From IMG/VR virus record IMGVR_UViG_3300007276_000367, positions 1-21,644 of that record: DNA of 21,644 nt; one strand, written 5' to 3'. The notes below the pieces were generated by a model that saw only the letters and a program-made list of their open reading frames with translations, made no database searches and had not been told where the DNA came from. This stretch comes from a virus. Below are positions 6,362-21,644 of this stretch, piece after piece; position 1 is the first letter of the stretch, and every line of letters begins with the position of its first letter. A program made the position numbers and the translations under genes.

Positions 6362-6574
6362 ATGATACATGTATTTGCTCTAATGCTGTACATAGGAGCG
6401 GGTGAGGACAAGAAGCTTATAAGTGATGACATGTACTTTCGCAAGATTGAAAGCTGTAACTACTACGCAGAACAACTTATTAAGTCTTTTGGTTCTCACC
6501 CTAACAATGACCCTAGAAGGGCTTACTGTGTACCTAAAGTTGTAGACCCTGCTAAAGAACAAATTTACTACTAA
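6362..6574 (+). CDS. Small conserved-looking marine-phage protein, unknown function
   Basis: 70 residues: a hydrophobic N-terminal segment (MIHVFALMLYIGAGED) followed by a hydrophilic part with SDDMYFRKIESCNYYAEQL and a Cys near the end (RAYCVPKV). The start lacks a clear Shine-Dalgarno; it is chosen because the hydrophobic leader plus GEDKKLISDDMYF is the arrangement I recall from similar small proteins in marine phages. The first segment is short for a membrane span but could be a signal-like anchor. Its stop codon overlaps the conserved 25-bp element described at 6571, which precedes phoH. No function can be given. Confidence 0.7.
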   Translation: MIHVFALMLYIGAGEDKKLISDDMYFRKIESCNYYAEQLIKSFGSHPNNDPRRAYCVPKVVDPAKEQIYY

Positions 6575-6597
6575 AAATAGAGATCGCTAATGATAGG
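6571..6597 (+). promoter_or_regulatory. Conserved intergenic element, copy A (candidate phage-RNAP promoter)
   Basis: CTAAAAATAG, one variable base, GATCGCT, one variable base, ATGATA, then GG. 23 of the first 25 bases match copy B at 16189. It overlaps the stop of the upstream gene and lies 33 bp before the phoH start. AT-rich 5' part, central GC core and ATA followed by GG are similar in layout to T7-family promoters, where transcription starts at GG. This is inference; a host sigma-70 site is a weaker fit because no -35 box sits at the right distance. Confidence 0.5.
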
Positions 6598-16188: not shown

Positions 16189-16217
16189 CTAAAAATAGTG
16201 ATCGCTTATGATATAGG
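16189..16217 (+). promoter_or_regulatory. Conserved intergenic element, copy B (candidate phage-RNAP promoter)
   Basis: Same element as at 6571: CTAAAAATAG, variable base, GATCGCT, variable base, ATGATA, here followed by TAGG. It lies 11 bp after a stop codon and opens the intergenic region before the basic-protein/portal/MuF-RNAP block. Eleven bases of its 3' part (GCTTATGATAT, 16204-16214) are repeated exactly at 16232-16242. The match between two unrelated intergenic sites argues for a DNA-binding signal; promoter function is inferred. Confidence 0.5.
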
Positions 16218-16969: not shown

Positions 16970-18535
16970 ATGGCACAGAAAATTACAACTACTAAAACTA
17001 TTAAGAAGTCTGTAGCAGATCCTAGTGATTCTTATCATTCTCTTACTCCTTTGTGGAAAAAATCAAGAGCAATTTTACAAGGTGAGGCTAATGTAAAAGC
17101 TCACGACACTACTCTGGCAACCGACTATTCTAATCTTTTGTTGCCATTTTCTCCTTCTATGACCCAAGCACAGTATAACTTTTATAAAGCCGAAGCAGAA
17201 CTTTCAGGGTTAACTGCGCAGTACTGTAAAGTACTTATTAGTTCTTTGCTACGGAAAAAATCTCAACTTAAATTACCAGAAGAACTTCCAGAAGAGGCGT
17301 TAGACTGGATTGAAACAAATTTTACTTTGGACGGTCGTTCTCTCTTTAATTTTCTTGACGCCGCTTTATGGGAAGAACTTCAGACCTCGCGCTGTTGGGT
17401 GTCAGTTGATTACCCGAAACTTACCGAAGAACAACAAGAAGCCTTAACTCCTGAAGAGCGTGACATGGTTGCGCCTTACCCAGTAATTATTAAAGCTGAA
17501 AACGTAATTAACTATCAAGTAAATGTACACCCTATTACTCGCCAAAGAACTCTTACTCGGCTAGTACTGCGGTACTTAACTGAAGAGTTTGATGAAGAAA
17601 ATCCTTGGCATCCTAACTATGTAGACACTGTTTGTGACCACTACTTAGATGAAGGCGGTAATCTTGTTTTAGACTACTACCGCCAAAAAGATACTTACGC
17701 AGAACTTAAAGTTCTTAATGGAGAAGTAACTCAAGACTATAAAGACATTCGCACAGAAACTCACTTTGAAAAGTATGACACCGTAACTCCCCAAATGTTT
17801 GGTGAGCGTCTTAAGCGTATTCCTGCTTGGCCTCTCAACGGTCATATTGAGCCTATTGAGCCAGTGCTTATGCCGCTCATTGATCGTGAAGTTTCTTTGT
17901 ACAACAAAGTATCTCGCAGAAACCACCTGCTTTATGGTGCTGCAACCTATACTCCTATTGTGTCTTCTGACATGACAGACGAAGAATTTGAAGAGTTAGT
18001 AGGTGCAGGGCTAGGTACGTGGTTACGAGTACGTAAAGACGAGTCAATAAGTGTTCTTGAAACTCCTACTGCAGCCCTCGCTGACATGGACACTGCTATT
18101 ACAAAAACCGTAGAAGAAATGGCTAAAATGGGAATTCGAATGCTTTCCCCTGAAACAGCACAGTCAGGCATTGCTTTAGAAATCCGAAACGCTTCTCAAA
18201 CAGCGCAGCTAGGTACTCTTAACGCTAAAGTGTCTCATATTATGAGAGAAGTAATTTCTTTTATGCTTAACTGGAAGTATGGTTCAACTTACTCAGGAAA
18301 TGATGTCGAGTTTACTTTATCGGCAGACTTTGCACCAGTTGTTGGCGGCGAAGGTGCTATGCGCTTAGTTACTGAATGGTATCAGTCAGGGCTTATTCCA
18401 AGAGAAACTTTTGTGTCTGTTGCTAAATACAATGACTTTATTCCTTCTGACTATGATGATGAAGAAGCAATTCAGTCTATTCAAACAGACCCTTTAACTC
18501 AAGAAACCCCTGATGATCAAATGGAAATAGAATAA
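16970..18535 (+). CDS. Portal protein (DUF4055-type)
   Basis: 521 residues, typical portal size, with AAGGAA before the start. N-terminal WKKSRAILQGEANVKAH, the VSVDYPKLTEEQQEAL segment, YPVIIKAENVINYQVN and the long segment around EPVLMPLIDREVSLYNKVSR...LYGAATYTPIV are the features of DUF4055 portal-like proteins. A long helix region with MAKMGIRMLSPETAQSGIA and IMREVISFMLNWKYGS corresponds to the conserved stem/wing helices. The C-terminus is acidic (YDDEEAIQSIQTDPLTQETP). The portal is the dodecameric gate for DNA packaging and exit. The next large gene is a MuF-type head morphogenesis protein, the usual partner. No terminase gene is in the window. Confidence 0.85.
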   Translation: MAQKITTTKTIKKSVADPSDSYHSLTPLWKKSRAILQGEANVKAHDTTLATDYSNLLLPFSPSMTQAQYNFYKAEAELSGLTAQYCKVLISSLLRKKSQLKLPEELPEEALDWIETNFTLDGRSLFNFLDAALWEELQTSRCWVSVDYPKLTEEQQEALTPEERDMVAPYPVIIKAENVINYQVNVHPITRQRTLTRLVLRYLTEEFDEENPWHPNYVDTVCDHYLDEGGNLVLDYYRQKDTYAELKVLNGEVTQDYKDIRTETHFEKYDTVTPQMFGERLKRIPAWPLNGHIEPIEPVLMPLIDREVSLYNKVSRRNHLLYGAATYTPIVSSDMTDEEFEELVGAGLGTWLRVRKDESISVLETPTAALADMDTAITKTVEEMAKMGIRMLSPETAQSGIALEIRNASQTAQLGTLNAKVSHIMREVISFMLNWKYGSTYSGNDVEFTLSADFAPVVGGEGAMRLVTEWYQSGLIPRETFVSVAKYNDFIPSDYDDEEAIQSIQTDPLTQETPDDQMEIE

Positions 18536-18693: not shown

Positions 18694-21644
18694 ATGAACT
18701 ACAATGATAAAATTTTTGATCGTATTGTTGACCACATGGGAGACGTACGGCTGTATGAAGAAGGTGTTCAACTTCAAAATCGCAGGATTTTAAAAAGACA
18801 TAGAAAAAATTTAAAAACGTTATTAAGAGGAAATGTTAGAGCCGATCTTCAGAAAGAAATGAATAGATTTGGTAAAGAACTTTCCGTCCACAATAATACA
18901 AGTTTAAAAGAATTTTCAACTTCTCAGTTAGACTTTTCTACAAATAACTTATACAAAGAAGTAAAAGACTGGTATAAAGTCCAAAGGCCAAAAACTAAAG
19001 AACTTCTTGGCGAAATTGCTGGACCAAATATCAAAGGTACTCGAAGTATCACTAAGAATATTTCTAATATCTCTGCTGGAGAGTTAGTACGTATTCAGTC
19101 TAAAGTGAAAGCAGGGCTTGCTAAAGGTTCTGGTAAAACCGCTATTATTGCTGATGTAATAAAAACTACAAAGTTAACCGAACATCAAGCAAGAACTCTA
19201 ACTCGTACCGCTATTACTTCAACTCAAACTGCTGCTGTACACAAAGTTGCAGAAGAAAACAAAGATATAATTAAGGGTTACATGTTTACCGCTATTCTAG
19301 ACTCTAGAACTAGCCCAATTTGTACTCATCACAACGGAAAAATTTATGACATAGGAGACAGGAGCTATGAACCTCCCCTTCACTGGAATTGTCGTTCCTC
19401 TATGGTACCAGTTCTTAAATCTAAGGAAGAACTACTGCAAGAGAGTCCGTCAAAACGTGTTAACGTTTCTGCGCTTAAAAAGAAAGACCCCCAAAAGCTA
19501 AATGGGCTTCCTCCTAAGACTAAAGATTTTGGCACATGGTTAAAAACTCAGTCTATGGACGTTCAAACTAAAATGTTAGGGTCAGAAGACGCAGCTAACT
19601 TATTCAGACAAGGCAAGTTAAAAGCTGACGAGTTTGTTACTCCTAAAGGGAAAGCACTAAGCATACAAGCATTAAGAGCCAGAGCTACAGCAGCTACCAC
19701 AGTATTTAAGCCTCGACAAAAAATAAAGTCTGAAGGGGTGTCTGTAGATTCAAAGACTCCTAACTCTTTACTAAATAATCCAAAATATAGAGACGATTTA
19801 AGAAATATGCTTTTGTTAGACTCAGATGACTTTAACAAAACTATGTCTCTTACTGACTATAAAGGAACTAGTTTACAAGGTAAGGCTGCTTCTCGAAGAA
19901 GAGTTGGAAATCAATTTGATGAAAGAAACTTTTCAGCAGACCCCTTAACAGGTGAAATTAAAAATAATAACATTTACGATCCTGATTTTAATCTTTATCA
20001 AGAGCGACTTGACTTTATGCGTAACGCTAAAGATCTTACTCTTCAACAAAAAGACTTTATTGAAAACATGGCTTCGTCTTTAAATGACAAGGTTTCTTTA
20101 AATCAACAAACAGTCATTGTTGAAAACTTAAGAGTTGTATTTCAAAGGTATGCTAAAGATAAAGTTCCTTGGGGGGACTTTGCTTCTGTTATGAGAGCAG
20201 AAAACAGATTTGCTGTACAAAACGTTTCAAGATTGTTAGATGTTAGGTCTAGGCAACGTTCAGAAATGTTTGTTAGTTATCTTTCTAAAGATAAACCTCA
20301 AGTTCAAATCATGGGTAAGTATTATACTTTAGATGATTTAAATAAAAACCTTTTAAAAGATCAACGTTTTATAGATAATTGGAGAGCTAAAGAAGGTAAA
20401 AAACTTTCAAGAAAGCTTTACTTTACAGGGCGAGCACCTATGCGGGTCTACTTTCAAAGCCTTTATACTAAGTATCCTAGCAAAAAAGAGTTTAAAGAAA
20501 ACTTATTAAACAAAGTAGTTCCTTTAAGAAAACGTTATAAGGACTTTAAAAAGAAGTTTAACAAAGAACCTTCTGATAGTTGGTGGACAAAAAATGTTGC
20601 ATCAGTAAGAGAAAGCTATCGAGGTGTTGTAGATCTTGAATTTATTAATAGAAAGAAAATTCCTTCTTCAAAAGTAATGGACGATAAGGCTTTAAGAAGC
20701 ATAACTAAAATTGCTAAGTTAATTTCTTCTGGGCAATCTACAGACTACGATACTTTAGCTATTAACATTGGTAAAAAGTTTACTGATGATTTTGGTACAG
20801 TGCTACCTCTTAAAAGAACGTTAAAAGCTCATCATAAAGACGGTTCTCGTATACTAGACTTTATGGCTAAAAGCGGCTACATTAAAGTACAATTTAGAGG
20901 TAAGACTCGAAGAGGTGTTATGGATGTAGAAACGGGTCGCGCAACAGGCGGTTGGGCCGATACTATTTCTAGAGAAGTTACTGTAATAGATAAAAAGCTT
21001 ATTTTGCTACAAGAAGCAGAACGTAGAACTGTTATAGCAAGACGACTTGGTGTAGTTAACGATAGAGATAGACTCTATGTTAAAGCTGGTAAAAAGACTT
21101 TCTTTGATGCTAGAGGTAACGACACAGGAGTTCCTATTATTTCAGCAGACAAGTTCGCTGACTATGACCCTAAACAAATAGACCGAGACATGGCTAAGAT
21201 GATGAATCATGTTTCAAATACAGAGTACCAAGTAGATGGCGAATTTTTTGATTTTATGGACGACATTGTGCGCTTTCGGGATCCTAGAGGGAAAAGCAAA
21301 TACTATGATTCTATCAATGAGCTGCGTCATGAGATTTTAAATCGTGGTGAACAAGGCTATGGTCTAATGGCTACTGCTAAGTGGCATAGACAACGAGGAG
21401 AATCTTTTAAAACTCAAGTGTTCATTGATTCTCGCGGTCGAGTATATCACCGTGGTTACTTAACTCCTACAGGAGGAGAGCTTGTTAGACCTTTTCTTAA
21501 TGCAGGACAAACTGTTAGCATGACTCCTATAGCCATGCGTGAACTACGTATTCAACTTGGCGCAATGATAGGGCCAGGAACGGAAGCACTTACTCAAACA
21601 GGACGTTTAGCTATTTTTCAAAGAAATGAACGGGCTTTGCGAGA
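18694..21644 (+). CDS. MuF head-morphogenesis domain fused to a T7-like RNA polymerase (3'-partial)
   Basis: At least 983 codons with no stop, cut by the right edge. An in-frame TAG directly before the ATG fixes the N-terminus; GGTGG stands 5 bp upstream. Residues about 110-240 form a Mu-F/SPP1 gp7 domain: LTRTAITSTQTAAVHKV, then AILDSRTSPICTHHNGKIY and PPLHWNCRSSMVPV, with the usual Cys210, His230 and Cys233. Residues about 240-825 are Lys-rich, helical-looking and unassigned. From 830 the sequence resembles single-subunit RNA polymerases: MMNHVSNTEYQVDGEFFDF parallels the T7 LNDLSHKPWAINTKVLEV block, and QVFIDSRGRVYHRGYLTPTG (909-928) parallels the T7 NMDWRGRVYAVSMFNPQG, including the T/DxxGR motif at 912-916. 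Palm motifs A, B and C would be downstream. MuF proteins are minor capsid components near the portal, so a virion-carried polymerase is inferred. Catalytic activity cannot be judged from this part. Confidence 0.85.
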   Translation, partial: MNYNDKIFDRIVDHMGDVRLYEEGVQLQNRRILKRHRKNLKTLLRGNVRADLQKEMNRFGKELSVHNNTSLKEFSTSQLDFSTNNLYKEVKDWYKVQRPKTKELLGEIAGPNIKGTRSITKNISNISAGELVRIQSKVKAGLAKGSGKTAIIADVIKTTKLTEHQARTLTRTAITSTQTAAVHKVAEENKDIIKGYMFTAILDSRTSPICTHHNGKIYDIGDRSYEPPLHWNCRSSMVPVLKSKEELLQESPSKRVNVSALKKKDPQKLNGLPPKTKDFGTWLKTQSMDVQTKMLGSEDAANLFRQGKLKADEFVTPKGKALSIQALRARATAATTVFKPRQKIKSEGVSVDSKTPNSLLNNPKYRDDLRNMLLLDSDDFNKTMSLTDYKGTSLQGKAASRRRVGNQFDERNFSADPLTGEIKNNNIYDPDFNLYQERLDFMRNAKDLTLQQKDFIENMASSLNDKVSLNQQTVIVENLRVVFQRYAKDKVPWGDFASVMRAENRFAVQNVSRLLDVRSRQRSEMFVSYLSKDKPQVQIMGKYYTLDDLNKNLLKDQRFIDNWRAKEGKKLSRKLYFTGRAPMRVYFQSLYTKYPSKKEFKENLLNKVVPLRKRYKDFKKKFNKEPSDSWWTKNVASVRESYRGVVDLEFINRKKIPSSKVMDDKALRSITKIAKLISSGQSTDYDTLAINIGKKFTDDFGTVLPLKRTLKAHHKDGSRILDFMAKSGYIKVQFRGKTRRGVMDVETGRATGGWADTISREVTVIDKKLILLQEAERRTVIARRLGVVNDRDRLYVKAGKKTFFDARGNDTGVPIISADKFADYDPKQIDRDMAKMMNHVSNTEYQVDGEFFDFMDDIVRFRDPRGKSKYYDSINELRHEILNRGEQGYGLMATAKWHRQRGESFKTQVFIDSRGRVYHRGYLTPTGGELVRPFLNAGQTVSMTPIAMRELRIQLGAMIGPGTEALTQTGRLAIFQRNERALR

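Follow-up and report, generated by a model that had tools for sequence, protein, structure and literature searches.

Does the last gene of a marine phage contig from IMG/VR encode an RNA polymerase (RNAP) that is carried in the virion? The window analysed here is the entire virus record IMGVR_UViG_3300007276_000367 (21,644 bases), and the gene in question occupies 18694..21644 on the + strand (as do all window features given below), where it is cut by the contig end. An earlier note on this DNA had described it as a MuF head-morphogenesis protein fused to a T7-like single-subunit RNAP, and had proposed that the MuF domain loads the polymerase into the capsid for early transcription independent of the host enzyme. 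Our analysis rests on computed results: the fusion and its motifs, the T7-type fold prediction, the gene order, a second polymerase in the same genomes and a promoter-like element with its position. The MuF–RNAP fusion is real, and judged from sequence and a structural model its C-terminal part is a complete T7-type RNAP with intact catalytic motifs, presumably capable of catalysis. The gene probably encodes a virion-delivered single-subunit RNAP, with packaging, entry, activity and promoter choice as proposed below.

A MuF domain and a T7-type RNA polymerase in one reading frame

An ATG-started frame (18694-21642) runs for 983 codons and is open up to the contig end. The IMG/VR contig L006 (538-4911) is 99% identical across all 983 residues and continues the same frame to 1457 amino acids, the window holding 983 of about 1457 codons; on L006 a gene of 223 amino acids follows. 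Neither the early stop nor the frameshift that the earlier note had named as grounds for giving up its idea was encountered soon after 21644. The palm motifs that it expected there fall past the window's end and are known from relatives: the C-terminal half of L006 carries, in the order of T7-type polymerases, DSRGRVY, ENDASSSGAQ, K-x7-YGAG and GTIHDAFF, with ENDASSSG, K-x7-YG and IHDAFF as motifs A, B and C.

The full-length layout, obtained via L006, comprises a MuF domain (residues 134-237), a helical linker and a T7-type polymerase (about residues 545-1457). The N-terminal region (residues 1-133; 18694..19092) is predicted to form long helices. The MuF domain (PF04233; 19093..19404) matches Pfam Phage_Mu_F with an expectation value (E) of 4.2e-16 and 60.1 bits, far over the cut-off of 29.6, and PHROG 241 (head morphogenesis) matches residues 62-337. 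The linker (residues 251-544; 19444..20325) is mostly helical in the predicted model, and no known fold was found for this region (predicted local distance difference test, pLDDT, 79; predicted template modelling score, pTM, 0.51). The polymerase begins at residue 545, its N-terminal part spanning 20326..21644 of the window according to structural matches to a model of L006 residues 340-1457. It includes the DSRGR motif (residues 912-916; 21427..21441), which aligns with DWRGR of T7.

Relatives were collected by a first scan (20 loci) and an alignment scan (the best 80 of 187 relatives); a second clade was seeded with EBPR siphovirus 1 (48 loci). Among 89 loci compared, 87 had a matching segment of at least 600 amino acids, two contigs being counted twice (L005/L072 and L012/L025), and at 59 of these 87 the entire fusion lies in a single frame. 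The fusion is common to two phage clades, one DSS3_VP1-like, to which the window belongs, and one EBPR siphovirus 1-like. Mean identity between them is 29% for MuF, 28% for the linker and 33% for the RNAP, so that the RNAP part is conserved at least as well as the head part. The deposited Ruegeria pomeroyi DSS-3 phages DSS3_VP1 and DSS3_PM1 (Naomviridae) encode a homologue of 1463 amino acids, annotated as 'minor head protein-like protein' with the RNAP part unlabelled; it is 60% identical to the part seen in the window, and 66% identical across the C-terminal 649 residues. A remoter homologue, divided between gp47 and gp49, occurs in EBPR siphovirus 1. An artefact of assembly or frame might be suspected from a contig that ends within the gene, and it has been refuted by the one-frame fusion in dozens of other contigs and in both deposited DSS3 phages, together with the pieces in EBPR siphovirus 1; we regard its probability as negligible. 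Outside phages, a scan of 84,980 genomes of bacteria and archaea with two peptide patterns, the only ones used, gave 33 pattern matches but confirmed no relative, which accords with a lytic lifestyle.

Support for the polymerase came from alignments, profiles and structure. The earlier note had placed two RNAP blocks in the window. The DSRGRVY block stood: its pairwise alignment to T7 RNAP scored 45, and shuffled sequences did as well in 1 of 300 cases (residues 900-960) or 7 of 300 (residues 800-983). The block at residues 836-855 did not, as the stretch 825-865 scored 27, no better than chance (138 of 300 shuffles as good). Neither Pfam nor PHROGs gave a polymerase match with the window fragment alone. 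The cut-off of Pfam RNA_pol (22 bits) is exceeded within a chain that also has MuF in DSS3_VP1 (27.1-28.8 bits), L095 (46), L018 (34), L119 and L093, and also in gp49 of EBPR siphovirus 1 (23.8 bits); MuF and RNA_pol were the only domains over the cut-off in full-length fusions scanned with Pfam. An eight-sequence profile searched against the PDB placed T7 RNAP entries at the top (whole-sequence E 0.0055), while single stretches were not significant (best independent E 0.27, alignment shown). With hhalign, the RNAP part matched T7 at E 2.2e-5 and a probability of 76% over 381 columns, in which motifs A and C were aligned and motif B was not. The T7 motif sequences are also visible in this alignment. 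Against N4 virion RNAP (vRNAP) as a single sequence hhalign found no match, and against a 589-residue piece of the DSS3_VP1 second polymerase it aligned 53 columns only (probability 0.9%).

The structural check that the note had proposed, against T7, N4 and mitochondrial RNAPs, came out in favour of a T7-type fold. The AlphaFold2 model of L006 residues 340-1457, built from 40 sequences (pLDDT 79, pTM 0.69), matched T7 RNAP (8dh5_M) with a Z-score of 31.2 (520 aligned residues, root mean square deviation 4.0), mitochondrial RNAPs with Z about 28 and N4 mini-vRNAP with Z 20.4. The matches cover model residues 207-1117, corresponding to about residues 546-1456 of the protein. In a viral structure library the top match was a 1463-residue protein at 63% identity, followed by phage RNAPs, with N4-type vRNAPs lower.

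For conservation we counted each column where sequenced in 105 distinct sequences (78 from the clade of the window and 27 from the second, the 48 loci of which were reduced to 27 sequences by omitting split or incomplete genes). The motif A aspartate is present in 102/102 sequences, the motif B lysine and tyrosine in 100/100 each, and the motif C histidine and aspartate in 90/90 each; motif B was equated with that of T7 through its K-x7-YG spacing, as hhalign skipped this stretch. In the DxxGR-type motif, D, R and R are kept in all 104 sequences that reach it, the glycine being replaced by alanine in many second-clade members. The column aligned with Arg627 of T7, the leading arginine of motif B, holds alanine in 72/74 sequences of the window's clade, an assignment that depends on the alignment; the neighbouring position is lysine in 70/74, and the second clade has arginine in 23/27. 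This alanine would suit an RNAP part that is a dead remnant, serving as filler or in DNA binding. Such a role is highly improbable given that two clades averaging 33% identity show no change, wherever sequenced, in the catalytic Asp, Lys, Tyr and His, and that the ratio of non-synonymous to synonymous substitution rates (dN/dS) in the RNAP part is low, about 0.03-0.12 in four pairs with measurable dS (a fifth was saturated), which indicates purifying selection.

Gene order, a second polymerase and inserts

A portal protein gene (16970..18535; PHROG 145, E 1.2e-53) directly precedes the fusion in the window, as in relatives, and the order portal, MuF–RNAP, major capsid protein was found in 7/7 long contigs inspected. 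Of 24 records searched, 11 reach 60 kb or more, and in every one of these RNA_pol matches a second gene besides the fusion, piecewise in several; in DSS3_VP1 it lies at 42436-44634, after the tape measure gene. A recent duplication of this second polymerase was considered and rejected: RNA_pol scores 272 bits there vs 27.1-28.8 bits in the fusion of DSS3_VP1.

The second polymerase also bears on whether the fused enzyme is delivered at all. It could act late in the producing cell, or be cut off at head assembly so that MuF alone is packaged, and a linker does separate the two domains. However, the second T7-like RNAP of the same genomes already suits late transcription, and at the majority of loci (59/87) a single frame still spans the whole fusion; we consider non-delivery very unlikely. 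A complete RNAP joined to a portal-type head domain and apparently expressed late (see below) would make little sense unless it were carried to the next cell.

Inserts and small genes were seen at several places in these genomes. In EBPR siphovirus 1 (JF412302; L004:15179-16040), gp47-gp48-gp49 resembles one MuF–RNAP gene with a probable group I intron and an HNH gene, the insertion point falling at the codons of motif B (QNMV / TFYG). Its match to Rfam Intron_gpI had E 1.2e-8 and 40.5 bits, the gathering score of 50 not being reached; at gathering thresholds Rfam gave zero matches in the window, L004 and L015. Second-clade MuF–RNAP genes are split into two to five frames in L094, L096, L102, L107, L111, L113, L133, L136 and L138-L141, and the second polymerases of G008, G010, G012, G017 and G020 likewise match piecewise. 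Introns or similar inserts appear to be plentiful in the group. L015 (1587-6359) has an in-frame insert of about 134 amino acids immediately ahead of RNAP motif A. The annotation of the DSS3_VP1 terminase large subunit (L002:3149-5169) is broken in two around a small gene, perhaps another insert; in DSS3_PM1 the subunit is annotated as one gene. Both DSS3 phages have a tRNA-Asn between portal and MuF–RNAP (L002:19822-19897 in DSS3_VP1), and a tRNA search of the window found none.

Early and late promoter-like elements

An early element upstream of the second polymerase gene is what a delivered transcriptase predicts. In DSS3_VP1, (G/C)TGAG-N9-GCATCTATAATGA occurs at 35.8 and 36.3 kb, in the stretch holding the second polymerase. 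G001-G003 also have the element, in the interval from the tape measure to the second polymerase. In a pool not selected by pattern, TGAG lies exactly 9 nt upstream in 12 of 15 occurrences of GCATCTATAAT, some entries overlapping. A pattern scan of IMG/VR, in which the TGAG and GCATCTATAAT letters were imposed, gave at least 80 loci. Among the matches listed, 54 of 80 loci carry genes of this phage group, as do all 27 loci with more than one site. Three features were unimposed, namely an A-tract ahead of TGAG, AAA behind it and GA behind TATAAT, yet are kept in most of the 74 distinct sites. Where listed loci include the second polymerase, 49/49 sites are on its strand and 0.8-6.6 kb upstream of the gene; where they include a tape measure, 75/75 sites are downstream of it.

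A perfect stem of at least 5 bp follows the element in 47/74 sites vs 1.8% of shuffles, and its arms covary (TGATAC/GTATCA, TGATATA/TATATCA, TGAACT/AGTTCA). In 46 of the 47 hairpin sites the stem begins 0-1 nt after TATA. Should the arms pair into a hairpin at the 5′ end of the RNA, the transcript would begin right after TATA in the T7-type manner, rather than 6-8 nt after TATAAT. The short covarying hairpins, often directly after the element, were seen in DSS3_VP1 (L206:491-514) and in many listed loci; they may stabilise the 5′ end of the early mRNA.

The second clade has an element of its own. A repeated 14-mer in G008 and G018 led to G[GCT][CT]ATCTTATATGA, which has 12 sites in four contigs, those examined among 14, with GCG 8 nt upstream in 11/12. 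Eight of the 12 precede the second polymerase by no more than 4.5 kb, four of these only if G008 and G018 are circular. To the eye, the two clades appear to have related elements along with their related polymerases.

These features bear on a reading in which the RNAP is packaged but host sigma70 RNAP starts the early genes at TATAAT, and the packaged enzyme has another task, for instance pulling in the DNA or transcribing a few genes. In the window's clade the TATAAT within the element agrees fully with the -10 hexamer, and host RNAP could read it. On the other hand, with spacers of 15-19 bp the closest -35 hexamer agrees at only 2 or 3 of 6 positions in 74/74 distinct sites, poorer than in shuffles; the unimposed columns and the 9-nt spacing described above are kept; the second-clade element reads TTATATGA, a poorer -10; and initiation 6-8 nt past TATAAT would cut into the hairpin. 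We therefore regard initiation of the early genes by the host enzyme as unlikely, and prefer initiation by the delivered polymerase.

A different element, of late type, stands before other genes. A repeat, ATAGG...CGTTAAAGAGGGG, which we take to resemble the T3 promoter, has 18 sites in DSS3_VP1 and 15 in DSS3_PM1 by matrix, some of them weak, and its copies precede genes for structure and replication. In DSS3_VP1 three of them, at 19.2-19.3 kb, stand just ahead of portal and MuF–RNAP, so that the fusion looks late-expressed. Between 29.4 and 45.9 kb of DSS3_VP1, a stretch that includes the second polymerase, this element gives weak matches only. A repeated element also stands just before phoH in DSS3_VP1. 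In the window, a candidate late (second-polymerase) promoter lies upstream of phoH (6571..6595), with a second copy (16189..16213) in the gap before 16317; this was the sole 23-mer pair with at most two mismatches found in the window, and no 12-mer is present there three times. By eye, the candidate resembles a 4-copy element of G001. In the second clade, G009, G012 and G018 (loci L297-L308) repeat CCCGTT(A/G)AATTAAC, a candidate second-polymerase promoter, of which one copy in G012 starts 11 bases past the end of the MuF–RNAP match.

Taken in sequence, the proposed steps are as follows. The MuF domain would dock the polymerase at the portal inside the head, and the enzyme would enter the host with the DNA on infection. 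From its own promoter, which in the window's clade would be TGAG-N9-GCATCTATAATGA, it would there transcribe the early genes, among them the gene of the second, ordinary T7-like polymerase. The second enzyme would then transcribe the middle and late genes, including the MuF–RNAP gene for the next virions.

Several results weigh against this scheme, in addition to the alanine at the Arg627 column and the TATAAT within the element. A model of the N-terminal 560 residues gave zero PDB matches at E <= 0.001, which does not imply a new fold. RNA_pol stays under the cut-off in L006 (15.7 bits), the contig that completes the window's gene, and likewise in L015 (18.6 bits), and Foldseek TM-scores to T7 are about 0.4-0.6 for a model with pTM 0.69. 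A third core copy in DSS3_VP1, at 67.8 kb, is without TGAG and far from the second polymerase, and 4/12 second-clade sites are located elsewhere, far from that gene. Among 29 long contigs chosen from the 80 listed pattern loci the fusion was present in 9, namely in 8/12 with group genes near the site and 1/17 without. Conversely, the early element was found in 8 of 16 fusion-bearing records; several of the other eight may be short of the early region. The window has no early element at up to 3 mismatches and itself stops short of the early region.

A broader proposal, for which our confidence falls a little short of even, extends the scheme to a lytic long-tailed group that includes the deoxyuridine-DNA DSS3_VP1 type. 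In these phages early genes would be expressed only through the head-loaded MuF–T7-type RNAP from a promoter of the form ~NG[AC]G-N9-G[CT]ATCT-W4-TGA, many early RNAs would start with a self-protecting hairpin, host RNAP would be needed at no stage, and the carried polymerase may make uracil-DNA a usable template. DSS3_VP1 has deoxyuridine DNA (PMC12697855), and the text there leaves RNA polymerase unmentioned. That a uracil-containing template favours the phage's own polymerase is speculation.

Known virion polymerases and MuF proteins

In titles and the opening lines of abstracts, no MuF–RNAP fusion was reported; the DSS3_VP1 genome paper, which lay outside this search, may describe one. That paper is reportedly Rihtman 2021, in Current Biology. 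If the proposal is true, a head protein at the portal would be a further loading route for virion polymerases, beside the large protein of N4 and the tape measure of P23-45, and MuF proteins would carry infection-starting enzymes besides toxins. The result would be a complete, testable scheme of early transcription, with two polymerases and two promoter families in a widespread group of phages, of which DSS3_VP1 and DSS3_PM1 are in culture and can be grown and tested. It would also offer new pairs of T7-type polymerase and promoter for laboratory use.

In our reading, the system follows the logic of N4 but loads its polymerase by a new module. N4 gp50 is a T7-related single-subunit vRNAP, a second T7-like RNAP comes from early genes, and early promoters are few (PMC4496689). 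The parallel with N4 drawn in the earlier note was right. Like N4 (Schitoviridae), the phages studied here have a T7-related RNAP in a large virion-type protein, a second T7-like RNAP that would be made from early genes, and few candidate early promoters. Unlike N4, they show the gene order of long-tailed phages with a tape measure, and MuF stands at the N terminus instead of N4's injection and metallopeptidase regions. A metallopeptidase region follows the RNAP in N4 vRNAP (PMC5512222, in excerpt); no such region follows it here, the L006 chain ending 85 residues past motif C. By fold score the fusion is nearer T7 than N4. The early promoters of N4 vRNAP are read as hairpins centred at -11. 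Our element appears to be linear, with a hairpin after TATA at 47/74 sites, and an N4-like hairpin promoter as the only signal was rejected, the hairpin missing at 27/74 sites.

The earlier note had also cited crAss-like phages as a T7-related parallel, which is mistaken: their polymerase, phi14:2 gp66, belongs to the two-barrel enzymes and was compared to QDE-1 (PMC10770324). From the same source, gp96 of Thermus phage P23-45 is a vRNAP fused to the tail tape, paired with a non-virion RNAP from a pre-early gene. As in gp96, the vRNAP proposed here is fused to a structural protein; gp96 has the two-barrel fold and is fused to the tape measure, whereas here a T7-type fold is predicted and the partner is a head protein. 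Two-barrel viral RNAPs, such as those of crAss-like phages and P23-45, have a DxDxD metal-binding motif.

MuF head proteins bind the portal and occur at low copy number in the capsid. Among them, a MuF gene directly after the portal gene is the rule (PMC5576092, in the part available), and MuF-borne toxins and other effectors have been described (excerpts of PMC5512222 and PMC3482391). The accessible portions of these three papers mention no polymerase on MuF, and the word polymerase does not occur in PMC5576092. Like SPP1 gp7, Mu gpF and the polymorphic toxins, the protein studied here combines MuF with a C-terminal extension, encoded right after the portal; unlike in MuF polymorphic toxins, which are associated with temperate phages, this C terminus is an RNAP and no toxin domain.

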